A stretch of 64,000 bases of DNA, from the NCBI GenBank assembly GCA_025358115.1, contig JANYKQ010000038.1, forward strand, positions 30,509-94,508, given 5' to 3'. Below the pieces are notes generated by a model. That model had not been told where the DNA came from. It did not search any database and worked only from the letters and a program-made list of their open reading frames with translations. The position numbers and the translations under genes were made by a program. How positions within the stretch are numbered: the first letter of the stretch is position 1; every line of letters starts with the position of its first letter. This DNA is from Methanomicrobiales archaeon (lineage in GTDB: Archaea > Halobacteriota > Methanomicrobia > Methanomicrobiales > Methanospirillaceae). Below are positions 5,431 through 63,648 of the stretch, in pieces.

Positions 5431-5528
5431 TCTGTTTTTATCAGGATTCAGATAAAAGGACCGGTCATTCGGATAACAAAGCTTTTTTCCTGCCGGATTT
5501 GATAGTGAAGAGAGGAATGAGTTTACCT

Positions 5529-5705
5529 ATGGATAAAGCAACCAAAATGCAATTGAGTGTCCTGTTCTTTGTGATCGGCCTTGCAATGATATTCATGCAG
5601 GATCTCAAACGCCTGGATACGATCAACCTTGGCTTCTCCATGCCGTTTGCCATCATGTTCTATATCGGCCTGATCTTCATGGTCATCGGGTATTACCTGA
5701 AATAA
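5529..5705 (+). CDS. small membrane protein (2 predicted TM segments)
   Basis: MDKATKMQLSVLFFVIGLAMIFMQ...MPFAIMFYIGLIFMVIGYYLK; internal ATG in ORF 5499..5705. Confidence 0.5.
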   Translation: MDKATKMQLSVLFFVIGLAMIFMQDLKRLDTINLGFSMPFAIMFYIGLIFMVIGYYLK

Positions 5706-5758
5706 AGCGGTATACCCCGGTAAACGCCGGTGCCATAAGGAGGAAATGTTCTCTCTTC

Positions 5759-5904
5759 GGCTCTGTTGAAATCCTCTAAAAATGGGGGGGGTCAAGGGGA
5801 TGCTCCCCTTGGGTTGCCTCCCCCTCTGGGGGAGAGATGGGGTCCCCCTCCAAATGGCCTATAAGAGAAAGCGAATCACCGGAAATAGGATTTCAACAGT
5901 GGCC
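5759..5904 (+). repeat. Repeat A copy 1 (TIR-bounded ~145-bp element)
   Basis: GGCTCTGTTGAAATCCT ... AGGATTTCAACAGTGGCC with the G/C-hairpin core shared with other copies. Confidence 0.85.
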
Positions 5905-5913
5905 TCTTTTCTT

Positions 5914-6441
5914 TTAATTCCCGGTTATTTCCGGTTTTTTCTCCCGGCTGATCTTGATCTCGCACTGGCGATCACCGGTGCACATGGACCGGACATAGCG
6001 TGTCATGTACTCTTTATTTAAGGACGGAACCGTCAGGAGCGTGAGGGCCATGCACCGTGGAAAGGTCTGCTCCCCGTTCATCCCCATCCTGTATCCCGTG
6101 TCAAGGAACGGGCAGCGTTTGATCAGGATCACCGAACCATCCTCTGACACGTCGATTGTTTCGCTCCTGCAGTCCGGGCCAAAAAGGATCGTCATGACGG
6201 TCCTCATGCTCTCTGCGAGATCGTGTGAATTCTTTACCGGTAACCCGAGATCCCGGGCAGTGGTGACTGCCATTGAGGAAAGTTCGATCCAGATCTCCCG
6301 TTCGATCTCATCATATCTTTCTCCAATAACTTTTCTGAATGCAACATCGTACAGGGCAGGTATCCGTGCAGCGCACTCCGCCGCGAGCCGCCACTTGATA
6401 TCATCGGGAATGGATTTGAGATCGGACAAACCGGTTGTCAC
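5914..6441 (-). CDS. hypothetical cysteine-containing protein (possible L-2-amino-thiazoline-4-carboxylate hydrolase-like fold)
   Basis: Complete 175-aa ORF; C..CPF..C..C pattern; family assignment tentative. Confidence 0.55.
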   Translation of the reverse strand: MTTGLSDLKSIPDDIKWRLAAECAARIPALYDVAFRKVIGERYDEIEREIWIELSSMAVTTARDLGLPVKNSHDLAESMRTVMTILFGPDCRSETIDVSEDGSVILIKRCPFLDTGYRMGMNGEQTFPRCMALTLLTVPSLNKEYMTRYVRSMCTGDRQCEIKISREKKPEITGN

Positions 6442-6613
6442 CTCAGGTACTCGTTTATAGGAAATCCGGTTATTTCAATGATCGTCTTGCTGCAATTCGT
6501 TCCTTGTTTTTTCAACCGTTTTCCTGCTTTACCGTACCGATAAAAACTCATGAATGGATAGTGATGAAGATAAAAAAAGATCAAAAATTGTCGAAAGGAT
6601 ATTGTCGGTGCGC

Positions 6614-7054
6614 TTATCTCGTGTAAGCGGATGGAGGAGCACCCGCTTTTCCGGCATGATTGTTCTTTTCTGTTTCCCCGAGTTTCAATAACGCTTCTTC
6701 AGCGGCAAGCTTTACAAAGCAATTATCCTTCTCACAGGTCTCCATAAGAGCCTGCGATGCGGATGGGTGACCGATTGTCCCGAGTGCCTGGGCTGTTGCA
6801 AATCGTACATCCTGGTCATGATCCTCAAGGAGTTTTACAAGATGATCAATGGATCGCACATCACCAATATTGCCCAGTGCGTCGGCTGCCATATATCTCA
6901 CCCATTTGTCGTCATCTTTGAGGGCCTTGTGCAGGTATTCGACTGCCGGTTGTCCGAAATTTCCCAGTGCGATGACTGATATCCAGCGCTCTGGCCGGTC
7001 CTTGTCCTGCAGTTGTTTGTAGATCGTTTCCGTCTTCTTCATCTCCCGTCCCAA
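6614..7054 (-). CDS. HEAT-repeat (PBS-lyase-type) protein
   Basis: Repeats AVEYLHKALKDDDKWVRYMAADALGNIGDVRSIDHLVKLLEDHDQDVRFATAQALGTIG. Confidence 0.85.
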   Translation of the reverse strand: MGREMKKTETIYKQLQDKDRPERWISVIALGNFGQPAVEYLHKALKDDDKWVRYMAADALGNIGDVRSIDHLVKLLEDHDQDVRFATAQALGTIGHPSASQALMETCEKDNCFVKLAAEEALLKLGETEKNNHAGKAGAPPSAYTR

Positions 7055-7146
7055 CTAGTTGGGATGAATCATAATATCCGGTGAGATATATTGAATATTT
7101 GCAATACTTGTATGCATGGCAGATCTGCTGACAACAGAAAATTTTT

Positions 7147-7283
7147 GGCTCTGTTAAAATCCTATAATCAGTGATTCGCTTTCTCTTATAGGCCATTTGG
7201 AAGGTGACACCCTCTCTCCCCCAGAGGGGGAGGCAAACCAAGGGGAGCATCCCCTTGACCCATCTTCTTTTTGAGAATTTTCC
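7147..7283 (-). repeat. Repeat A copy 2 (inverted orientation; right TIR degenerate)
   Basis: GGCTCTGTTAAAATCCT...GATTCGCTTTCTCTTATAGGCCATTTGG...CTCCCCCAGAGGGGGAG...AGGGGAGCATCCCCTT; a solo TIR end ATTTCAACAGAGC lies at 7541-7553. Confidence 0.8.
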
Positions 7284-7349
7284 CATGAAAAACAGATTTT
7301 TCGTTCAGTTTAATTAAAGGGTCCCCGCTCAAAATACCAACAGGATTGT

Positions 7350-7523
7350 GCCGCCGCCCCCAACGGGGCTTCCTGTGCGGCGGTTCAAGGACTAAAATAC
7401 TTCCCCGTAAACAGATTTGCCCTGCGAGGCCCCGCCGAGGCGGCTGAGCGACCCCAAAAAGGGGGTGGGAAGATTCCTGAGGTCCATAAGTAGGGGTATC
7501 AGATTTTCATGCTTTGGGTCCGA
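7350..7523 (+). repeat. Repeat B copy 1 (GC-rich ~170-bp element)
   Basis: GCCGCCCCCAACGGGGCTTC...GATTTGCCCTGCGAGGCCCCGCCGAGGCGGCTGAGCGACCCCAAAAAGGGGGTGGGAAGATTCCTGA...CAGATTTTCAT matches 38674-38840. Confidence 0.75.
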
Positions 7524-7717
7524 ACACTTTGTTCATGTGCATTTCAACAGAGCAAAAATTTTAGTTTTTAAAACACAAAAAAATGCCGGGATTTTTTTTG
7601 TTTCAACTGTTTTCCATCAATTCAAAATGAATAAGCAATGTGAATAATCACCGTGATCTTTACAATTCCAAGCCGGATAATGAATTCACTCCTTTTTTAG
7701 TTCCGGATTTTCGGGTG

Positions 7718-8747: not shown

Positions 8748-10541
8748 CTAGGTGCGTTTGAACATGGCGTCCAGATCCCCCCTGCTGAACCGGATGATGG
8801 TTGGCCGGCCATGAGGGCAGGTGTACGGATTCTGGGTGAGACGGAGATGGTTGACGATACGCTGGCATTGTTCCCGCGAGCAGACCGTACCGGCCTTGAT
8901 CGCCCCACGGCACGCGATCACCCGGGTGATCCGCTCCCGGTTATTGACGGTACCGGTCGCAGCGTCACTGATGAGGTCGCTGATGATCTCATCGATAATT
9001 CCTGCATCTTCCATCCGCCCGAGAACCACCGGGATTGCCCGGACAATGAACGTTTCCCCCCCAAACTCCTCCAGCACAAATCCTTCCAGTGAAAGAGCCG
9101 GAAGCAGGTCTTTTAGGATCGATCGTTCCTTTGGCGTGCGGTGAAGGATGACCGGCCAGATAAGTTCCTGCGATTGATGTTCGCCTTTGAGCCGGAGCAG
9201 TACCTGTTCGTACAGGATCCGCTCGTGGGCGGCATGCTGGTCGATTATCACCAGTTCGCCGGTATCGGTCCGCCCGAGGATGTAGATGCCCCCGAACTCC
9301 CCGATCACTTCAATGGCGGGAAGTTTTGAAGGAACCGGGGGGATTCCGGTGAGGAGCTCGGTCTGCCGGAGCCGCTGGTCGGAATCAATGGTCCCCGCGT
9401 GGGTGGATTCAGAAACGCCGGCTGCTGCTTCAGTGATTGGGTAGGTATATGCCAGCTGTTTGTCCAACATAACCGGCGGGGATACTGCAGCTTGGACCGG
9501 GGAATCTGCTGCAGGGATAAGATCCTGGCTGAGCAGGGCTTCCGACACTGCTTTCCTGATCGCTTCAGCGATCTCTTTTTCCCGTGACAGGCGAACCTGT
9601 TTTTTTGTCGGGTGTACATTTACATCCACAAGACCCGTGTCGATCCGGAGCAGGAGAAATGCAACCGGGAACCGGTCTTTGGCGAGCAGGGTACCATATC
9701 CTGCCCTGACTGCTCCGCTAATTAGCGGGGATGAGATGAAACGCCCGTTGATGATTACCAGTATGCGTGCCGTGTCTTTCCGGGTGAGTGATGGCTGTGA
9801 AATATACCCTTTGACCGTCATAATCGGAAAGGAAAGATCAACCGGGACAAGATGTTTGACCGTGTCCGAACCGTACAGGCGTGCGATAGTGTCGAGGGAC
9901 CGGGTTGAACGGTCTGTCACCAGCTGCTCATGGTTATTATAAAAAAGACGAAATGAGCATTCAGGGTGGGAGAGACAGATCCCTTCCATGATGGTATGGA
10001 TCTGGGCAAGTTCCGTGTTGATACTTTTCAAAAATTTTTCCCGGGCCGGGGTGTTATAGAAGAGATCCTCAACCAGGATGCTGGTACCTTCCGGGGCACC
10101 GATTCCTGCGGTCTCTTTTACCGTTCCTCCGGCGATCACAATCTTTGTCCCGGCCACTGCGCCGGAACCCTGCTGTTTTGTTACCAGGGTCACCCGGGAT
10201 ACTGCTGCGATACTGGCGAGCGCTTCTCCCCGGAACCCAAGAGTCTGGATAGTATCAAGATCCCTGATGGCCGCAATCTTGCTCGTTGCATGGGGGACAA
10301 ATGCAAGCTCTGCATCCGCCGGTGACATGCCACAACCGTCATCGGTTATCCGGATGCTGGTGATCTTTTCCCGGGATGCAGAGAGTTCTATACGGATTGA
10401 ATGTGCCCCGGCATCGATGGCATTCTCCACCAGTTCCTTGACCACAGACGCCGGGCGTTCAACTACTTCACCCGCTGCGATCTTGTTGACCGTTGCCTGA
10501 TCAAGGATATGTATGACCGGATGGTCTGGTTCGCGGGTCAT
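8748..10541 (-). CDS. mutL: DNA mismatch repair protein MutL
   Basis: IAAGEVVERPASVVKELVENAIDAGA, DDGCGM, TLGFRGEALASIAAV, C-terminal CRGAIKAG. Confidence 0.97.
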   Translation of the reverse strand: MTREPDHPVIHILDQATVNKIAAGEVVERPASVVKELVENAIDAGAHSIRIELSASREKITSIRITDDGCGMSPADAELAFVPHATSKIAAIRDLDTIQTLGFRGEALASIAAVSRVTLVTKQQGSGAVAGTKIVIAGGTVKETAGIGAPEGTSILVEDLFYNTPAREKFLKSINTELAQIHTIMEGICLSHPECSFRLFYNNHEQLVTDRSTRSLDTIARLYGSDTVKHLVPVDLSFPIMTVKGYISQPSLTRKDTARILVIINGRFISSPLISGAVRAGYGTLLAKDRFPVAFLLLRIDTGLVDVNVHPTKKQVRLSREKEIAEAIRKAVSEALLSQDLIPAADSPVQAAVSPPVMLDKQLAYTYPITEAAAGVSESTHAGTIDSDQRLRQTELLTGIPPVPSKLPAIEVIGEFGGIYILGRTDTGELVIIDQHAAHERILYEQVLLRLKGEHQSQELIWPVILHRTPKERSILKDLLPALSLEGFVLEEFGGETFIVRAIPVVLGRMEDAGIIDEIISDLISDAATGTVNNRERITRVIACRGAIKAGTVCSREQCQRIVNHLRLTQNPYTCPHGRPTIIRFSRGDLDAMFKRT

Positions 10542-13216
10542 GGATTTTCCTTACGCTCGATGGTCTTTTTCAGTTCTGCGATCTTTGTGAGTGCCTGCAT
10601 GGGCGTCATCTCGTCGGGATTGAGGCGGGCGAGGGCCCGGAGGGTCGGGTGTTCAGCCGGAATATGGGTCTCTGCCTTGTCATCAACAAGAAGAATCTGG
10701 GTGTAGCGCTGCGGCCGGGTACCGGCAGGAACTGCCTGGTTCATGCTTGCTGAAAGCAGCACCTCTGCCCGTTCGGTGACTTTTTTCGGGATCCCGGCAA
10801 GGCGGGCTACATGGATACCATAGCTCTTGTCGGTTGCACCGGGAATGAGTTTTCTCAAAAAGACCACTTCATCCGCGGTTTCCCTTACTGCAAAGTGATG
10901 GTTTCTGACCCGTTTTAACTGCTCTTCCATGGCAATGAGTTCGTGGAAGTGTGTTGCAAAGAGGGTTTTTGGCCCGGTTGTTCCCTTTCCATGGAGGTAT
11001 TCGAGTACCGCTTTTGCAATCGAGCTTCCGTCTGCAGTGCTCGTACCCCGGCCAATCTCATCAAGAATTACGAGGCTCTTTGCGGTAAAGTTGTTGAGGA
11101 TATTGGCCAGTTCCAGCATCTCGACAAAGAACGTGCTCTGCCCACTGGCGAGATCATCAAAGGCCCCTACCCGGGTAAAGACGCGATCGAGAATGCCGAT
11201 GCTGGCATGGCGGGCGGGAACAAAACTTCCTGCCTGGGCCATGATACAGCAGAGGGCAACGGTGCGCATGTACGTGGACTTACCGGCCATGTTAGCCCCG
11301 GTGATGATCATGATCTGGGTCCTGGTGCCCGAAAGTTCGGTATCATTGGGGACAAAGCCTCCCGCTACTCCCTGCTCGACCACCGGGTGACGTCCGTCCC
11401 GGATCATGATGGTATCGCCGTCGTTGAGCTGCGGGCGCACGTAATCCCGGGTCCGGGCTGCCTCGGCAAGGGCAGCGGATACATCGAGCATTGCAATGCC
11501 GGCAGCAATGGATTGCAGCGCATCGATCTGTTTCCGCAGTGTATCTATGAGCGTTGTATAGAGTTCCCGCTCCAGGGCAAGCACCCGCTCGTCGGCATTG
11601 GTGATGAGGGTTTCTTTTTCCCGCAGTTCCGGGAGGGTATAGCGCTCCCCCGTTGCGGTAGTCTGTTTGCGCTCATAATGCGCAGGGACAAGAGGGAGAT
11701 TGGGTTTGGTGATGTCAATATAGTAGCCGAAGATCCGGTTGTAGCCGATCTTCAATGATTTGATTCCCGTTAACTCCCGTTCCTTTGCCTGGAGTTCCAC
11801 GATCCAGTCCTTTCCTGAATGCAGTACAACGGTGATCTGGTCGAGCGCCGTGGAATAACCACGCCGGATTACCCCCCCGTTCCGGGCAATAACCGGTGGT
11901 TCATCGACAATAGCCCTCTTTATAAGATCAATAGTTTCCGGAAGATCCCGGCACTGCCCGAGCGCCTCCAGTAACAACCGGGAGAGTCCTTTGCCGGCGT
12001 AATCTTCCAACGGTTTCCTCAGTTCCGGCAGTGCCTGGAGCGATGCAGCCAGTGCCTGGAGATCGCGTGGCCCGGCATTGCCATACGCAATTCGTGCGGC
12101 TATGCGCTCGATGTCTGTTACCCGGGTGAGGTGCGATCGCAGCAAAAGGCGTTCTGTGGTATGCTCAGCGAGGAATTCTACGGCATCGAGCCGGTGGTTG
12201 ATAAGGTCAATGTCGGTGAGCGGCCGGGAAATATTGCGGCTTAAGAGCCGGCTTCCCATCGGCGTTTTTGTGAGATTCAGGCACGAGAAGAGCGTCAGGC
12301 CTTTCTGCCCCCCGCGGATGCTCTCCATCACTTCGAGATTGCGCAGCGTGATCGCATCCAGCATCATACTCTGGGCCGAAGTTCTTCGCGAGATGCTGGA
12401 AATATGAGAAAGTGGGGAGTACTGGGTCTCTTGTGCATAAGCAAGCGCTGCACCTGCTGCGCCAATGACAGATGGCTCACCGTCAAACCCGTACCCGTCC
12501 AGGGAGTGAACCCGGAAGTGGGACGTGAGAAGATATCCGGCCTTCTCATTGTCAAACAATCCGTCCGGAACCCGCGAGACCAGGATCGACCGTTCCCGGA
12601 TCCGTTCCTGCAGATCCTCCGAAACGGTTGATGGCATAATGATCTCTGCCGGGTGGTACCGGGCAATCTCGGAGAGGATGTTCTGGTGATGGCTGTCCTG
12701 TCCGATGCTGGTGACAAAGAACTCTCCCGTTGATATATCCAAAAGAGCAATACCCCATGTGCTCATTTTTTTATCAGGACATATAGCCATGAGGTACGTA
12801 GCTGCCGATGAGGAGAGCATGGAGGAGTCGATCACGGTGCCGGGCGTGATCACCCGGACAATCTCGCGCTTGACGATCCCCTTGGCAGTTTTGGGATCCT
12901 CGACCTGGTCGCAGATGGCCACCTTGTAACCTTTGCCAATCAGCTTTGCGATATAGCCGTCAATCGCATGATAGGGAACCCCGGCGAGAGGAATGGGATT
13001 ATCGCCAATCTTGGACCGCGACGTGAGCACGATCTCGAGTTCTTTTGAGATGATCTTTGCGTCCTCTTCAAAGGTCTCGTAGAAATCGCCAATGCGGAAG
13101 AGGAGGACGGTATCTGCAAATTTTTCCTTGAGCTCCCGGTACTGCCGCATGACCGGTGTGAGGCGGGGACCGGTCAATTCTGTCTCGGGTGTATCGGGTG
13201 ACGACTCACGAACCAT
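10538..13216 (-). CDS. mutS: DNA mismatch repair protein MutS
   Basis: FRIGDFYETFEEDA, ITGANMAGKSTYMR, VILDEIGRGTSTADG, FATHFHEL; likely start at MVRESS (13216) rather than ORF start 13453. Confidence 0.96.
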   Translation of the reverse strand: MVRESSPDTPETELTGPRLTPVMRQYRELKEKFADTVLLFRIGDFYETFEEDAKIISKELEIVLTSRSKIGDNPIPLAGVPYHAIDGYIAKLIGKGYKVAICDQVEDPKTAKGIVKREIVRVITPGTVIDSSMLSSSAATYLMAICPDKKMSTWGIALLDISTGEFFVTSIGQDSHHQNILSEIARYHPAEIIMPSTVSEDLQERIRERSILVSRVPDGLFDNEKAGYLLTSHFRVHSLDGYGFDGEPSVIGAAGAALAYAQETQYSPLSHISSISRRTSAQSMMLDAITLRNLEVMESIRGGQKGLTLFSCLNLTKTPMGSRLLSRNISRPLTDIDLINHRLDAVEFLAEHTTERLLLRSHLTRVTDIERIAARIAYGNAGPRDLQALAASLQALPELRKPLEDYAGKGLSRLLLEALGQCRDLPETIDLIKRAIVDEPPVIARNGGVIRRGYSTALDQITVVLHSGKDWIVELQAKERELTGIKSLKIGYNRIFGYYIDITKPNLPLVPAHYERKQTTATGERYTLPELREKETLITNADERVLALERELYTTLIDTLRKQIDALQSIAAGIAMLDVSAALAEAARTRDYVRPQLNDGDTIMIRDGRHPVVEQGVAGGFVPNDTELSGTRTQIMIITGANMAGKSTYMRTVALCCIMAQAGSFVPARHASIGILDRVFTRVGAFDDLASGQSTFFVEMLELANILNNFTAKSLVILDEIGRGTSTADGSSIAKAVLEYLHGKGTTGPKTLFATHFHELIAMEEQLKRVRNHHFAVRETADEVVFLRKLIPGATDKSYGIHVARLAGIPKKVTERAEVLLSASMNQAVPAGTRPQRYTQILLVDDKAETHIPAEHPTLRALARLNPDEMTPMQALTKIAELKKTIERKENP

Positions 13217-13277
13217 AGGTGCTGAAATGTAGCCTTCCTGATCAGTTAATACCGATCTTTCGTGCAGTTGCTTTTTT

Positions 13278-14007
13278 TCAGGGAGCATTGCGGAACAGGA
13301 AGACAAGAGACAGGGGGGAAGAGAGTACCAGCGCAATGAGCCCGAAGCCAAGTCCCAGGGCAAACCCCATGCCAATGATGCGCGTAATTTCGGTGAGGAT
13401 CCCGACCGCACAGGGGACCTGGCTCCAGAGGATGAGCATGCCGGTAATCGCAAGGATGCCGTAACCTGCTGCTGCGTTTTTCAGGTCCTGGTTACTTGGT
13501 GCAACGGAGAGGATAAGGCTGAGGACCAGGTACAGGTAGAGGAGGAACCAGAAGTTGAACTGAACCACAAGGTTTTGCGTAAATGTAGCCAGGATTCCTC
13601 CCCCCATCACAACCACGGCATCGGAAGAATTGATAGCAAGAGGAAGAGCGGGAAAAAAACACCCGAGATAATGGGAAAAGAGCCACGTGCACCCGGTGAG
13701 AACGAGCGGGATGCAGAAGAGCGGTGCGGTGCTGATCACCACATTCCCGGCAACCGGAATCACCGGGGGATTGTACGTGACAGACCCGCCTTCAAGGGAA
13801 AAAAAACTACCCTGCGTATTTTTGCCCCGGTGAGCAGGCAGCCCAGCATATGGGCGCATTCATGGACAACAACGCCCGGTGCGCGGAGAATGTAATACAG
13901 GAACCTGACCGGTAATGCCTGGGCCCAGAGAAGATCCAGAACTTTTGACAGGAGAATCACGGCAATACCCGTTGCAATAATGATAAAAAAACCGGTGTAG
14001 TCCATAG
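13278..14007 (-). pseudogene. M50-like membrane metalloprotease, reading frame broken at an 8-nt A/T run
   Basis: Frame 1 gives ...APGVVVHECAHMLGCLLTGAKIRRVVFF; frame 2 continues FSLEGGSVTYNPPVIPVAGNVVISTAPL...; switch at the A8 run 13799-13806. Confidence 0.65.
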
Positions 14008-16453: not shown

Positions 16454-16595
16454 GGCTCTTTTAAAACCCTCTGAAATGAGGGGGGGTCGGGAGGATGCGC
16501 CCTTTGGGATGCCTCCCCCTCTGGGGGAGAGAGGGGGTCACTCTCCCAATAGTCGATAAGGGGAAGCGAATCATAGGAAAAAGGGATTATCCAGC
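16454..16595 (+). repeat. Repeat A copy 3
   Basis: GGCTCTTTTAAAACCCT...GGGGGGTCGGGAGGATGCGCCCTTTGGGATGCCTCCCCCTCTGGGGGAG...GCGAATCATAGGAAAAAGGGATTAT. Confidence 0.8.
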
Positions 16596-16624
16596 ACAAA
16601 AAATAAAAAAAAGATGGGTAAATA

Positions 16625-20029: not shown

Positions 20030-20285
20030 GGCTCTGTAGAAATTATCGGTTTTTATCATAGGCCGATATTGGGGGCGACGGCAATCTGATACCTCCTTCC
20101 CGCCACTCGGGAATTCCCCATACTGGGATAGGATCCACAGTGGGTTAGTGATAATTCCGCTAAAAAGGGGGTCAAGGGGATGCACCCCATGGGTTGCCTC
20201 CCCCTTTGGGGGAGAGAGGGGGTCACACTCATAATAACTAAAAGAATATAACCGAATTGTTGAAAAAAATAGGATTTCTACCGAG
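20030..20285 (+). repeat. Repeat A copy 4, enlarged by a ~110-bp internal insertion
   Basis: GGCTCTGTAGAAATTATC at left, core TCAAGGGGATGCACCCCATGGGTTGCCTCCCCCTTTGGGGGAG, right TAGGATTTCTACCGAGC; extra sequence ~20050-20160. Confidence 0.7.
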
Positions 20286-20531
20286 CAGATCTTCTCATTA
20301 AAAAAGAGCATGATCCAAAAAAGGTAATGTAAATAATTTTCTCTGACTGCAGAGAACCGTGGCCGTGCGGGTTTATTCATTGTCCGGAGCCCTCAGGGAA
20401 AAGACGGGAGTAAAAAAAGCAAAAATGCTGGAATATCCCTGGCAGATTCCAAAGGGAAGAGTTTTTTACCGTGCCATAGTATTATGCATCATCACTAAAA
20501 AATAAGTACAGAATTAAAAACGGAAACCTGT

Positions 20532-22704: not shown

Positions 22705-25224
22705 TCATTTGAGCCCCTTTATCACCATTAAGGTGATATCATCGAACTGGGGCACATCCCCGGTGAACTGTTGCACTGCTTCAAGAATTTTACCCAGGAT
22801 ATCCTGGGAGGACATATGGGCATTTTGCCGTAAGACTGCATACAGTCTCTCTTCGCCAAACATCTCTTCCCGGGTATTGATCGATTCGGTGATGCCATCG
22901 GTGTACATGACAATGACATCATCCGGCCCGATATCCACGGTACGGGAATAAAATTCCCGGTGCTCGACAGCCCCCAGGATAATTCCCGTTGGCAGGAGTT
23001 CTTCCAGGCTGCCATCCCTGCTCCTGAATACCACCGGGGGGTTATGACCCGCGTTCACGTAGGTCAGGGTCCGGTTCTTCTCAGAAAGTGTCCCGTAAAA
23101 GAGCGTGACGAACATGCCGGCCTTGGAGTCCTGTGCAATGACATTGTTAGCATCATAAATTGCCCGGGCCGGATCGCGGTGCCAGAGGGCATTCACCCGG
23201 ACCACGATCCGGGATAATGCCATAAACAGTGCAGCCGGCACACCTTTTCCCGATACGTCCGCTATGAGAATTCCCAGGGTTCCTTTCTCAAGCGGGATTA
23301 TCTCAAACGGGATCACATCGAAAAAATCCCCTCCCACTTCTTTTGCCATCACACTTTTTGCCGCAATGTCAAAACCGGAGATCTGGGGGAGGATTTCGGG
23401 AAGAAAGCTCTGCTGGATCTCGGCAGCAATCTGGAGTTCGGCGTTCGAACGGGCAAGGCGCCCTTCCATCTCCCGGCGTTCGGTAATATCCCGGATCGTT
23501 TCAATTGCCCCGGTGATATTGCCCTGGGGATCATAGAGCGGGCTTGCTTTTGCCCAGAAGTACCGTCCCGAGATTCCCAGTTTCGGGATAAATGTATCGA
23601 CAACCAGTGTATCGCCTTCCCGTTTTATATGGGTATAGCGGCTCTCCACCTCTGCCTCGGGCATGAGAATGAGGTTTGCAAGCATGGGTTTCTTCTCGCC
23701 ATAAAACGGGAGGGCATACTCATAATCCCCTTTCCCAACCATGGCCTGTGCAGGTACGCCGGTCAGTTCTTCCATGGCCCGGTTCCACGTGATAACAATC
23801 CCGTCCCGGCTGATGACAAACGTAGCATCCGGTAAAAAACTGATGATCTCTTCGAGACTCCGGCGGGACCGGGTGATCTCCTGTTCAGCCCGTTTCCGGT
23901 CAGAGATATCGCGTATCGTCTCGATTGCACCGGAAATATTTCCCTGGGGATCATAGAGAGGACTTGCCTTTGCCCAGAAGTAAGTTCCTCCATTACCGAA
24001 AGTGGGTATGAAAATATCTACAACCAGCGTATCGCCGATCTTTTCCACGGTATCGTACCGCTTCTCAATCTCGACTTCCGGCATGAATATGAGATTTGCG
24101 AGCATCGGTTTTCTCTCGCCATAAAACGGGAGGGAATACTCATAATCCCCTTTCCCGAGTATGGCTGTGGCGGATACTCCCGTCAGTACTTCCATGGCCC
24201 GGTTCCACGTTATGACAATGCCGTCACGGTTGATGACAAATGTGGGATCCGGCAAAAAACTGATGATCTCTTCAAGACTCCGGTGGGACCGGGTGATCTC
24301 CTGTTCAGAGCGTTTCCGGTCCGTGATATCCCGGATTGTCTGTATAGCGCCGGAAATATTCCCGTGAGGATCATAGAGGGGACTTGCCTTTGCCCAGAAG
24401 TAAGTTCCCCCGTTACCGAATGTGGGTATGAAAATATCTACAACCAGCGTGTCACCTATTTTTTCGATATTGTCGTACCGCTTCTCAATCTCGACTTCCG
24501 GCATGAATATGAGATTTGCGAGCATCGGTTTTCTCTCGCCATAAAACGGGAGGGAATATTCATAATTCCCTTTTCCAAGTATGGAGCTGGCTGATACCCC
24601 GGTCAGTATTTCCATTGCACGGTTCCATGCAATCAGCTTCCCCTCAAGATCGATAACAAACGTGGCATCCGGCAAAAAATCAATGATCTCTGCCATCCTC
24701 CGGTTGGTCCGTTCCTGTTCCTGTTCAGCCCGTTTCCGGTCCGTGATGTCGCGGATTGTCTCAATTGCTCCGGAGATATTTCCCTGGGGGTCATAGAGAG
24801 GACTTGCCTTTGCCCAGAAGTAAGTTCCCCCGTTACCGAACGTGGGTATGAAAATATCTACAACCAGCGTATCGCCGATCTTTTCTACAGTATCATACCG
24901 CTTCTCAATCTCGACTTCCGGCATGAAGATGAGATTTGCGAGCATAGGCTTTCTCTCGCTGTAAAAAGGAAGGGCATATTCATAGTTCCCTTTACTGAGC
25001 ATGGCTGTCGCGGCTACCCCGGTCAGTTCTTCCATTGCCCGGTTCCAGGCTATCACCCGCCCTTCCAGATCGATCACAAACGTGGCGTCAGGCAAAAAAT
25101 CAATGATATCTCCATGAAATGTCCCTTCCCGCGAACCCATAATCCTGCTCCTTATGCTAGAATAGACCGTTATCGGGTATGAATTTTCTTCTTTTTTTCT
25201 CCTGAAAGGTAGTATTCTGATCAT
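22705..25224 (-). CDS. four tandem PAS domains plus RsbU/SpoIIE-type PP2C serine phosphatase
   Basis: Four near-identical ~140-aa PAS units each ending D-I-(T/S)-(D/E)-R; C-term GGDFFDVIPF, LIADVSGKGVPAALFMAL, GHNPP, MYTDGITES. Confidence 0.93.
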   Translation of the reverse strand: MIRILPFRRKKEENSYPITVYSSIRSRIMGSREGTFHGDIIDFLPDATFVIDLEGRVIAWNRAMEELTGVAATAMLSKGNYEYALPFYSERKPMLANLIFMPEVEIEKRYDTVEKIGDTLVVDIFIPTFGNGGTYFWAKASPLYDPQGNISGAIETIRDITDRKRAEQEQERTNRRMAEIIDFLPDATFVIDLEGKLIAWNRAMEILTGVSASSILGKGNYEYSLPFYGERKPMLANLIFMPEVEIEKRYDNIEKIGDTLVVDIFIPTFGNGGTYFWAKASPLYDPHGNISGAIQTIRDITDRKRSEQEITRSHRSLEEIISFLPDPTFVINRDGIVITWNRAMEVLTGVSATAILGKGDYEYSLPFYGERKPMLANLIFMPEVEIEKRYDTVEKIGDTLVVDIFIPTFGNGGTYFWAKASPLYDPQGNISGAIETIRDISDRKRAEQEITRSRRSLEEIISFLPDATFVISRDGIVITWNRAMEELTGVPAQAMVGKGDYEYALPFYGEKKPMLANLILMPEAEVESRYTHIKREGDTLVVDTFIPKLGISGRYFWAKASPLYDPQGNITGAIETIRDITERREMEGRLARSNAELQIAAEIQQSFLPEILPQISGFDIAAKSVMAKEVGGDFFDVIPFEIIPLEKGTLGILIADVSGKGVPAALFMALSRIVVRVNALWHRDPARAIYDANNVIAQDSKAGMFVTLFYGTLSEKNRTLTYVNAGHNPPVVFRSRDGSLEELLPTGIILGAVEHREFYSRTVDIGPDDVIVMYTDGITESINTREEMFGEERLYAVLRQNAHMSSQDILGKILEAVQQFTGDVPQFDDITLMVIKGLK

Positions 25225-26039: not shown

Positions 26040-26255
26040 GGGTCTTTTTTGTTGTGAAAGAGTTATCGGTGAACTGAATGAATTGCTCCACATTTTTTAC
26101 ATAAGATCTATGCAGAATAAAAAAATGATCTGAAGGACCCGTCATGAACGCGAGTTCATATAAGGTTCATGAATCCCGTGAATGTGATCTCCTTTTGCCT
26201 TCGGGCCTCTTTGGGGCATGGCGGGCAGGGACGTTTAATTTTTTAAGGTTCTGAT

Positions 26256-26400
26256 GTTCTGTTGAAATCTTTTTACCGGTGATTCGCTTTTTCTTATTGG
26301 CTGTTTGGAGGGTGACCCCCACTCTCCTCCGGAGGGGGAGGCCGTCCAAGGGGTGCATCCCCTTGACCCCCCCTTTTTTAGAGAGTTTCAACAGAGCCGG
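26256..26400 (-). repeat. Repeat A copy 5
   Basis: TTCTGTTGAAATCTTTTTACCGGTGATTCGCTTTTTCTTATTGGCTGTTTGGAGGGTGACC...GAGAGTTTCAACAGAGCCGG. Confidence 0.85.
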
Positions 26401-36873: not shown

Positions 36874-36904
36874 AGAAAGATCTGCAATTTTTTTATGATT
36901 ACAG

Positions 36905-37049
36905 GGCTCTGTTGAAATCCTCTAAAAAGAGGGGGGGTCAAGGGGATGCTCCCCTTGGGTTGCCTCCCCCTCTGGGGGAGAGAGGGGGTCACCCTCCAAA
37001 TGGCCTATAAGAGAAAACGAATCACCGGAAATAGGATTTCAACAGAGCC
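36905..37049 (+). repeat. Repeat A copy 6 (145 bp, perfect 17-bp TIRs)
   Basis: GGCTCTGTTGAAATCCT at 36905-36921 and exact reverse complement AGGATTTCAACAGAGCC at 37033-37049. Confidence 0.95.
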
Positions 37050-37196
37050 GATAACAGAGCATTTTGGTGAATGCAGATTTCCTTGAAATCTCCGGTTATT
37101 ATAAGCATATTTTTCAGACTGGTATTTCCCTGGTTCATAAAAGTTCGAAGCAGTCTCGTCCAGACCAGACTGCCGGTAAAAAAAGATATTCGGGTT

Positions 37197-38528: not shown

Positions 38529-38673
38529 TTCCTGTTTCCTTTGCTACGATAGTGTATGCAACAGTAAATGTCGATAACGATGCTAAAAAGAATGTCGTTT
38601 TCTTTTTCGGGGAAGACGGTTGATTTTCTATTAAAATCGTCGTCTTCAATCTTCTTGAATAATTGTGATGAAC

Positions 38674-38840
38674 GCTGCCGCCCCCACAAAGGGGCTTCTT
38701 GTGCCGGGGTTCAATGACCGGATACTCTTCCTTAAAACCGATTTGCCCAGCGAGGCCCCGACGAGGCGGCCGAGCGACCCCCGAAGGGGGTGGGAAGACT
38801 CCTGATATCTATAAGAGGCAAATCTGATTTTCATTATATG
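38674..38840 (+). repeat. Repeat B copy 2
   Basis: GCTGCCGCCCCCACAAAGGGGCTTC...GATTTGCCCAGCGAGGCCCCGACGAGGCGGCCGAGCGACCCCCGAAGGGGGTGGGAAGACTCCTGA...CTGATTTTCAT. Confidence 0.75.
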
Positions 38841-38914
38841 GGTACGAAATCCCGTTTATATCTGTTTTAAAAAGATCTGGAATATTCTTAGAAAAATCCG
38901 GTGAAGGGAAAACC

Positions 38915-45839: not shown

Positions 45840-46190
45840 GAAACACCAGCATTTATTTTTATTGCCAAAGAGGCCCCTTGCTGATGAGATCTGTGTATTG
45901 CCTTCCTAATACAATTTCTGATATATTTCTCATCTTTTTTGACAGATACAGGGCTTATGTTTTTTTGTTGTCAACTTCGTCTTTCACGAGGGAGTAACTC
46001 ACATTTTCCGGGACCCCGGGATAATTAAAAAAGCATGGGAAAACGCACCCTGGCCATCTTCGTTTTTCCGGAAAAAAGCCAGATTTTTTTTAAGCTGGTG
46101 CTCCTGCCTGGAAGCCTTTGAAGAAAATACATACTGATAACCGATATCCGGCAGATTAAAAAAAAGAGAAAAAATTATCCGTTAATGCAC

Positions 46191-46370
46191 TCAGAAGCGG
46201 GGCTTCCGGTGTTTCGGGAGGCAGTCTCTGCAGTAGACGGGCCTTCCCTCAGTTGGCTTGAACGGTACTTCGCATTCTTTTCCACAGTCTGAACAGACTA
46301 CTTTTGTCATTTCACGGGGACCAAAGTCACGGGGACCCTGGTTGCCGCCAAAATTTGATGATCCATACAT
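46191..46370 (-). CDS. 59-aa CxxC...CxxC zinc-ribbon protein, copy 1
   Basis: Manual translation MYGSSNFGGNQGPRDFGPREMTKVVCSDCGKECEVPFKPTEGRPVYCRDCLPKHRKPRF*. Confidence 0.82.
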   Translation of the reverse strand: MYGSSNFGGNQGPRDFGPREMTKVVCSDCGKECEVPFKPTEGRPVYCRDCLPKHRKPRF

Positions 46371-46892
46371 GATAAATTACTCAAACAGTCTGATTATAAA
46401 CTGTAAATTTATATTTGATGCCGGGGTATAAGAGTGTCTGTATTGGGAGTGGCAGAAAATCCGCATTATCCCGCAATAATGGGCACCGGTGTAGTTTTTT
46501 CCGTGTTTTGGAAGGGTATTTTAAAAAAACGCGCACGGATTTTGGAGTTTTTACACCATCCAGCAGGTCCGTCCTGGTGGTGTACCTCAGAAAATTTTCC
46601 TGCCGGTGACCGGTTCCGGTTTTTACCTGGCATTCATTTCCTGGGACCCGGCATTTTTAAATTCTTCAGTTTTCCCGTCTGGGAACATGCGCAGGCTCGC
46701 GGAAAGGGCAGCTTTCCGATTATACTGCAGGACAAAAAAGATGACAACCCGTAAACCTGTAACCGGTAATTTTTTGGACCGGCAAATCCCCAAAATCGAT
46801 ATACCCGGTTTTTAAGCCCATGCAGATCGCTATGCAGGATTAAACAGAGGAAACAAACTAAAAAAAGAGAAAAAATTTTTCCGTTAATACAC

Positions 46893-47072
46893 TCAGAAGC
46901 GGGGCTTCCGGTGTTTCGGGAGGCAGTCTCTGCAGAAGACGGGCCTTCCCTCAGTTGGTTTAAACGGTACTTCGCATTCTTTTCCGCAGTCTGAACAGAC
47001 TACTTTTGTCATTTCACGGGGACCGAAGTCTCGGGGACCGCGGCTGCCGCCAAAATTTGATGATCCGAACAT
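46893..47072 (-). CDS. 59-aa CxxC...CxxC zinc-ribbon protein, copy 2
   Basis: Manual translation MFGSSNFGGSRGPRDFGPREMTKVVCSDCGKECEVPFKPTEGRPVFCRDCLPKHRKPRF*. Confidence 0.82.
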   Translation of the reverse strand: MFGSSNFGGSRGPRDFGPREMTKVVCSDCGKECEVPFKPTEGRPVFCRDCLPKHRKPRF

Positions 47073-47679
47073 GATAATTACTCAAACAGTCTGATTATAA
47101 ACTGTGCTACTATAAATGTGGCCTGAGTATAAGAGGTTCTGTATTGAACCACAGGTTTAGCGGAACAAATCCATGAAAAATGATGGTTTTTGTCCCAGCT
47201 GCCAGGTCCCCTTGTATAATCCGGTCCAGGCATACCGTATGCCGGGTCCCTGTATGCATGGTTTTACGGCACAATGTGTCCCGTGCGCGGGTGCACCGGA
47301 AACCGGTTCCAGATTTTTTTTAGAAATTTCCGGTTTTTCCCGGTACTCTTTTTTAAAGCCATCCGGGCATCACGGGTGTAGTGAGCGGGGTTAACAAAAT
47401 ATCCGGGTACGACGGAGGTCCGGATGGTTCCCTTTGGGCTGCCACCCCCGGGGGGAAAGAGGGGTAACACACCATCGGTCCGGAACTCATGACCATCAGT
47501 TACCGGAAATTCCAGGGTTTTTTACCGGGCAAATCTTTTCTGCCCGAAACTCCGGAAGATGCCGGTGCAGGGGAAGGAATTGTTTCAGATAAGCGTGTTT
47601 TCCCGGGAACAAGTGTCGGGGATCCGGTATGCGCAGGCACCGGCTCGCTGCAACAAAAAATTTCCGGTGAAAAAGAGTA

Positions 47680-59022: not shown

Positions 59023-59030
59023 TTTTTTTT

Positions 59031-59100
59031 GCTCTGTTGAAATCCCGGTTCCGGTGATTCACTTTCATTCATTGGCTGCCGGGAAGTGGAGATGGGAGAA
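59031..59100 (-). repeat. Repeat A fragment (copy 8, truncated)
   Basis: GCTCTGTTGAAATCCCGGTTCCGGTGATTCACTTTCATTCATTGGCTG. Confidence 0.65.
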
Positions 59101-61775: not shown

Positions 61776-62330
61776 ATGGCTGAAAACAAGTACGAATCAT
61801 TGAAAATTGAGAACATCGTTGCTTCCGGAGCCATTGCCGAGACCATTGATCTCGTAGAGCTCTCATCCAAGGTTCCCAACTGCGAACTCAACAAGAAGCG
61901 GTTTCCCGGTGCAGTCTATCGTATCGCCGATCCCAAGATTGCTGCCCTCATATTTTCATCGGGAAAGGTTGTGCTCACCGGCATGCGAAACCGTGAGGCC
62001 CTTACAAAGGGACTTGCCGTCATCACCAAATCTTTGAATGACGCGGGTATTGTAACGCTCAAAGAGCCCAAGGTTGCGATCACCAACATGGTCTGTTCAT
62101 ATGATCTTGGCAAATACATCAATCTCAACAAGATCGTAGTCACGCTCAATGTGGAAAATATCGAGTACGAACCCGAGCAGTTCCCCGGCCTTGTATACCG
62201 GATCAAGGATCCCAAGATAGTTGTCCTCATCTTCTCTTCCGGAAAGATCATCCTGACGGGCGGCAGAAATCTTGAAGATATCCGGAAAGGTCTTGGTGTG
62301 CTTGAACAGAAACTCTCAAGCATTATGTAA
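61776..62330 (+). CDS. tbp: TATA-box-binding protein, paralogue 1
   Basis: IENIVASGAIAETIDLVELSSKVPNCELNKKRFPGAVYRI...FSSGKVVLTG. Confidence 0.97.
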   Translation: MAENKYESLKIENIVASGAIAETIDLVELSSKVPNCELNKKRFPGAVYRIADPKIAALIFSSGKVVLTGMRNREALTKGLAVITKSLNDAGIVTLKEPKVAITNMVCSYDLGKYINLNKIVVTLNVENIEYEPEQFPGLVYRIKDPKIVVLIFSSGKIILTGGRNLEDIRKGLGVLEQKLSSIM

Positions 62331-62709
62331 GAGATTTTTTGTTTATTTTCAGGTAAAAAAAACAATCTTCTTTTTCTTTGCTGTCATTCTTCCGGGTTTT
62401 ACCAGGGAAAACCAACTCTCTTCCACTCTGCCGTCATGCAATGGATTATTCCGGTTTTTTTTAAGACTCTGTCGCGACCCCACTGCTTCCCCACCGGGGC
62501 TGTTTAGGTGGAAACCGGGGTAAAAATCCCGGTCGTTTTTATGAATTCTCCCGCGGCCCGGTATCAGGTAACAGATCAGACACTGCTGGTGCATGCGAAT
62601 CATTTTTGTTTATATAAAGAAAAACGGGGGTACCGGAATGCAAAAAAATTTACCTATAATAAAGCTTGTCCGTTAGTATTATGATCAAGTGAGAATCATT
62701 CTAGAGCAG

Positions 62710-63264
62710 ATGGCTGACAAAAAGTACGAATCATTGAAGATTGAGAATATCGTTGCATCCGGTGTTATTGCAGAATCCATTGATCTTGTTGAACTCTCCA
62801 GTAAGGTCAAGAACTGCGAACTCAATAAGAAACGATTCCCCGGTGCAGTCTATCGTATCGAGGATCCCAAGATCGCATCCCTGATCTTCTCATCCGGCAA
62901 GATCGTGCTCACGGGCATCCGCAACAACAAGGCACTCGTGGACGGGCTTGCAATCATCATCAAGTCATTGAATGATGCCGGCATTGCAACCCTCAAGGAA
63001 CCCAAGGTTGCGATCACCAACATGGTCTGCTCGTACGATCTCGGCAAGTACATCAACCTCAACAAGATCGTAGTTACGCTCAATGTTGAGAACATCGAGT
63101 ACGAACCCGAGCAGTTCCCCGGTCTCGTTTACCGGATCAAGGATCCCAAGATCGTAGTCCTCATCTTCTCGTCGGGAAAGATCATCCTCACGGGCGGCAG
63201 GAACTTAGAAGACATCCGCAAGGGTCTTGGCGTTCTCGAACAAAAACTTGAAAGCATAATGTAA
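62710..63264 (+). CDS. tbp: TATA-box-binding protein, paralogue 2
   Basis: MADKKYESLKIENIVASGVIAESIDLVELSS...; internal ATG in ORF 62689..63264. Confidence 0.97.
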   Translation: MADKKYESLKIENIVASGVIAESIDLVELSSKVKNCELNKKRFPGAVYRIEDPKIASLIFSSGKIVLTGIRNNKALVDGLAIIIKSLNDAGIATLKEPKVAITNMVCSYDLGKYINLNKIVVTLNVENIEYEPEQFPGLVYRIKDPKIVVLIFSSGKIILTGGRNLEDIRKGLGVLEQKLESIM

Positions 63265-63510: not shown

Positions 63511-63648
63511 TCGCTTCGGTTGAAAGTCATATTTCGCGACTCGATTTTCTCTTTAGATAACCGGGAGTATGACCCCCTCTCTCCCCCAGAGGGAGGTTAT
63601 CCCAAGGGGTGCACCCCCCCTGACTCCCGGGTTTATCGGGAGGTTTTC
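63511..63648 (-). repeat. Repeat A copy 7 (diverged)
   Basis: TCGCTTCGGTTGAAAGTCATATTTCGCGACTCGATTTTCTCTTTAGATAACCGGGAGTATGACCCCCTCTCTCCCCCAGAGGGAGG...AAGGGGTGCACCCCCCCTGAC. Confidence 0.7.

Follow-up and report, generated by a model that had tools for sequence, protein, structure and literature searches.

MITEs derived from IS5-family elements have been tabulated in methanogens, with lengths of 147 bp in M. barkeri and 140 bp in M. acetivorans (table in PMC3852290), and the kind of element considered here, an IS5-derived MITE of ~140–150 bp, is thus already known from Methanosarcina. The elements described below were first noticed in a window of 64,000 nucleotides, that is, the whole stretch of archaeal DNA that was analysed. 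They share with the Methanosarcina MITEs a length of ~140–150 bp, TIRs of 15–17 bp, and a partner from the IS5 family. However, duplications of 0–3 bp are listed there (PMC3852290), whereas they measure 8 bp here. Unlike in the Methanosarcina elements, a double-hairpin core is moreover common to MITEs with unrelated ends, and this 64-bp core is the less ordinary part of the window MITE.

Within the IS5 family, members of the ISH1 subgroup (e.g., ISTth7) are 900–1150 bp long, contain one ORF, and are flanked by 8-bp direct repeats (table in PMC6352166). The partner IS elements found in this study resemble this subgroup in having an IS5-family transposase, a length of 987–1013 bp, one ORF, and an 8-bp duplication, a tentative assignment made by length, ORF number, and duplication size.

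A dispersed family of TIR-bounded elements

The sequence at 36905–37049 is a 145-bp element, short, non-coding, and bounded by perfect 17-bp TIRs, just as the earlier note had described it. Together with its kin, it is a MITE (Table 1). Searching the window with the TIR pattern at up to three mismatches returned 12 matches, compared to a mean of 0.16 and a maximum of 1 in shuffled sequences. The eight copies or fragments that had been listed earlier (5759, 7147, 16454, 20030, 26256, 36905, 59031, and 63511) are all real, some of them decayed or partial.

Copies are also dispersed outside the window. The whole-element search of the window's own genome, an archaeal MAG of 2.26 Mb that is 70% complete, yielded 35 matches, so that the further genomic copies the earlier note had thought worth searching for do exist. 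Likewise, with variants at one mismatch included, the 13-bp motif GGCTCTGTTGAAA occurred 36 times in the 2.26-Mb MAG vs 4 times for the reversed control. Several matches coincided with the very ends of contigs, which would be expected if copies were recent, nearly identical, and therefore broke the assembly; contigs C26, C27, C36, and C46 start or stop inside copies of nearly one variant. In a tree of the MITEs, the copies from genome G005 clustered with a support of 0.98 and those from G014 with 0.91, forming lineage-specific groups.

Table 1 Positions of the reference element, its parts, and the further copies within the window
Feature	Position	Strand	Evidence or remark
Reference 145-bp MITE, perfect 17-bp TIRs	36905..37049	+	TIR pattern and genome search
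Left TIR GGCTCTGTTGAAATCCT	36905..36921	+	TIR pattern
Right TIR, read on the + strand as AGGATTTCAACAGAGCC	37033..37049	-	Equals right end of the G021 IS5-family element (L088)
Target-site duplication, left copy GATTACAG	36897..36904	+	Flank comparison
Target-site duplication, right copy GATAACAG	37050..37057	+	Flank comparison; 7/8 match
64-bp core GGGGGTCA..(two hairpins)..GGGGGTCACCCTC	36933..36996	+	Present also outside the MITE family
Hairpin 1 CAAGGGGATGCTCCCCTTG	36939..36957	+	
Hairpin 2 CTCCCCCTCTGGGGGAG	36964..36980	+	
Right arm CCTATAAGAGAAAACGAATCACCGGAAAT	37004..37032	+	Varies between species
145-bp copy	5759..5903	+	Flanks CTCTCTTC/CTCTTTTC, 7/8
Composite copy, element A with Repeat B inside one end	7147..7554	-	Flanks 7/8
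Diverged copy	16454..16600	+	Right TIR decayed, end approximate
258-bp longer form, GGCTCTGTAGAAA-class TIRs	20030..20287	+	64-bp core as in the reference MITE
144-bp copy	26255..26398	-	Flanks GGTTCTGA/GGTTCAGG, 6/8
Fragment, left-end TIR and arm	59030..59078	-	Without core
Degraded copy, core and right arm	63511..63629	-	Ends degraded, start ~63511

Repeat B, a second repeat of about 260 bp, lies at 7285–7545 and about 38640–38890 and contains the GC-rich hairpins GCCGCCGCCCCC..GCGGCGG and GCCCAGCGAGGCCCCG..GACCCC. Repeat B is nested within one TIR of element A at 7147–7554, at C38:28560–28962, and in contig C117 of G021. The window further contains two tandem TATA-binding-protein genes (PF00352) at 61776–62330 and 62689–63264, which mark the organism as an archaeon and resemble each other at 77% across 300 nt; mutL and mutS, next to each other on the minus strand (8748–13453) of what is an archaeal contig; a protein with four tandem 140-aa PAS-type repeats and a SpoIIE phosphatase domain, encoded with 420-bp DNA repeats (22705–25224); and a direct repeat at 46152–46445 and 46854–47146, with 224 nt at 91% identity, then 82%, and the copies 702 bp apart.

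Target-site duplications and occupied or empty sites

The earlier note had recognised no convincing target-site duplication by eye. This has to be corrected, as an 8-bp duplication exists: the 36905 copy is flanked by the pair GATTACAG/GATAACAG, and in a set of 24 distinct TIR-bounded elements of 85–160 bp, taken from the own and related genomes, 90.6% of positions agreed between 8-bp flanks, compared to an identity of 0.49–0.50 when 7 or 9 bp were used. Eleven of the 24 pairs were perfect and 20 matched at no fewer than seven of eight positions; in 2000 shuffles, such matches numbered 1.3 on average and never more than 6. Perfect 8-bp duplications in the own genome are CAAATTCC at contig C5 and GAAAAATT at contig C48, the latter read by eye.

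Conservation of the element at identical positions in other species had been named as an observation that would speak for an ancestral element. We located the livF-like gene upstream of the 36905 element in 28 other species, and within the region compared none of them carried the element (0/28). At this livF 3' site, divergence from the own genome is at least 18%, and no base-exact empty site is readable for the 36905 copy. An empty orthologous site was observed for a related MITE class in the comparison of G017 and G020, two species with ~95% identity: a core-bearing, GTAG-ended MITE of ~250 bp in G017 (L264) is absent from G020, where the flanks are continuous and a single CTTTT-type target remains. 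This empty site concerns the related GTAG-ended class, as distinct from the 36905 copy. Both species have a further eight core sites in common. For one further core found in G017 only (L255), the right flank was not found beside the left flank in G020.

IS5-family elements as the likely driver

IS elements with the same ends, which the earlier note had named as something to look for, occur as IS5-family elements in the sister species G021, G003, and G019. The G021 element (C58:17968–18955) is 988 bp long, with the ends GGCTCTGTTGAAACCCT and AGGATTTCAACAGAGCC; its 17-bp right end is an exact match to the MITE TIR, and its left 17 bp are off by one base. Its C-terminal ORF matched the NCBIfam IS5 family model NF033579 at 141.5 bits (cut-off 140) as well as Pfam DDE_Tnp_1 (PF01609). 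The G003 element measures 993 bp and has MITE-type ends as in G021, G029 contains a related copy, and in G019 a left TIR without mismatches precedes a 217-aa stop-free frame that runs to the contig end. The full-length same-ended copies have broken reading frames, with a frame change between the two halves in G021 and more damage in G003 and G029. Around the G021 element, we found no clear duplication (4/8). It lies (L088, 1469–2456) in the interval between tetrapyrrole methylase and HhH-GPD genes; the matching interval of the window, 5431–7717, contains two MITEs, and the exact site differs from that of the IS.

A second IS group has GGCTCTGTAGAAA-type ends and a transposase ~50% identical to that of the same-ended group. 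Perfect 8-bp duplications flanked six of the copies examined (L113, L114, L115, L126, L131, and L134), and MITEs with GGCTCTGTAGAAA-type ends also exist, for example at 20030–20287 in the window. Intact GTAG-class members have one ORF of about 304–318 codons. Searching the PDB by sequence with an intact relative returned nothing.

In the own genome, no match to the partner transposase was found, which is weak evidence of absence given that the MAG is 70% complete, and none of its DDE_Tnp_1 genes above the cut-off had such a TIR pair. The motif GGCACTGTTGCAAA resembles IS6-type ends, and an assignment to IS6 was considered; it was dropped, as the same-ended element encodes an IS5-family transposase.

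Considering the IS5-type ends, the 8-bp duplications, and the species-specific sites, we put the probability of the whole reading, in which the repeats are MITEs that have nearly the ends of an IS5-family element and would be moved by its transposase, at roughly 93%, with mobilisation in trans as the inferred part. The earlier reading of a non-autonomous element has thereby gained support from the copy number, the duplications, the lack of the element at the orthologous site in 28 species, the same-ended IS5-family element, and the empty site of a related MITE. The duplication, the autonomous partner, and the separate distribution of the hairpin core go beyond what the earlier note had recognised.

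A double-hairpin core common to unrelated MITEs

The core, GGGGGTCA-hairpin-hairpin-GGGGGTCACnCTC, had matches in 30 of 36 genomes of the genus in a first search and in 1 of 24 genomes of other genera, the latter match being marginal. It is present in GTTG-ended and GTAG-ended MITEs alike. In G025 and G031, it lies inside elements of 264–266 bp with the unrelated ends TATCCCGAA..ATTTCAC. The direct repeats at their flanks, 16 bp in one case and 18 bp in the other, have different sequences, which indicates that another MITE family with the core inserted twice, independently. IS5-type ends were found on both sides of 45 of the 99 uncut core copies, on one side of 8, and on neither side of 46; the last figure is not a frequency, as solitary copies were fetched on purpose and the sample is biased. 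In L086 and L087 (G028 and G033), a hairpin-rich insert of ~55 bp separates the two core hairpins, a sign of additional nesting among hairpin modules.

Shells without a core were observed as well. The own genome and G014 contain 94-bp copies joined at GGGGGTCA, and in G021 a core-free shell joined at GGGGGTCA lies within a longer copy. Most simply, shell-only copies would be deletions between the two GGGGGTCA direct repeats.

Core identity was 86.5% within genomes vs 85.6% between genomes. Cores are thus hardly more alike within than between genomes, which argues for no recent genome-wide homogenisation. At one of the sites common to G017 and G020, divergence is higher in the core than in the flanks; at another, the spacer beside the core differs strongly and the outer flanks are nearly identical. 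This would fit recombination between hairpin-rich repeats better than strict constraint. The core might also, though this is less likely than not, be a modular unit spreading across about 30 species, between unrelated MITEs and solitary sites, independent of the IS5-type ends, be it by its own mobility or by recombination or conversion between hairpin-rich repeats.

A related reading, compatible with the MITE one, takes the core to be a mobile or converted unit in its own right, which entered different MITEs by insertion. One core in GTTG- and GTAG-ended MITEs and in the TATCCCGAA..ATTTCAC family with its 16–18-bp direct repeats would fit this, as would the copies lacking IS5-type TIRs in the biased sample. 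However, no solitary core has a demonstrated empty site, the deletion between GGGGGTCA repeats explains the shell-only forms equally well, there is no candidate enzyme, and MITEs that have decayed may have left the solitary copies behind. We therefore regard a separately inserted core as rather unlikely.

Movement of REP/BIME-like palindromes by a RAYT (Y1, single-strand) transposase, with the TIRs being incidental, is very improbable. The core does consist of REP-like hairpins, stands alone at many intergenic sites, and forms mosaic arrays with other GC-rich hairpin modules in the manner of REP/BIME mosaics. In contrast to those, there is no RAYT association, and many copies lie in TIR-bounded elements with target duplications. 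Among 39 genomes of the genus, just 5 contain Y1_Tnp (PF01797), and it is absent from the core-rich genomes G006, G016, G018, G021, G029, and G034 and from the own genome. This distribution, the 8-bp duplications, and the IS5-type ends refute a RAYT origin for the TIR-bounded form.

Least credible are ancestral functional elements under selection (a terminator, regulatory RNA, or protein-binding site) that do not move, a reading which would accommodate the strong sequence conservation of the core across 98 copies and the eight sites common to G017 and G020, but against which stand the absence from the orthologous site in 28 species, the target duplications and the one empty site, the lack of an Rfam match or of compensatory pair changes among the 98 copies, and the shared site at which the core has diverged more than its flanks.

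Proposed mechanism and implications

In the favoured IS5-type mechanism, a DDE transposase of an IS5 group that resembles ISH1 in its length, its single ORF, and its 8-bp duplication would bind the shared ends, mobilise the MITE, and join it to cuts staggered by 8 bp, for the most part in AT-rich intergenic DNA. The transposase would act in trans and, in the own genome, may by now be lost or unassembled. For the window MITEs, we infer mobilisation in trans because the genome to which the window belongs yielded no driver, and this genome probably lacks a live one. The two GC-rich hairpins would be cargo. They would at times drop out by deletion from one GGGGGTCA direct repeat of the core to the other, with the 94-bp shell-only copies as the product.

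These results link a family of archaeal MITEs to a likely driver and define its target duplication, and the activity of the family thus becomes testable. The shared hairpin core, found together with different ends and duplication lengths, raises the question of how unrelated MITEs acquired a common cargo.
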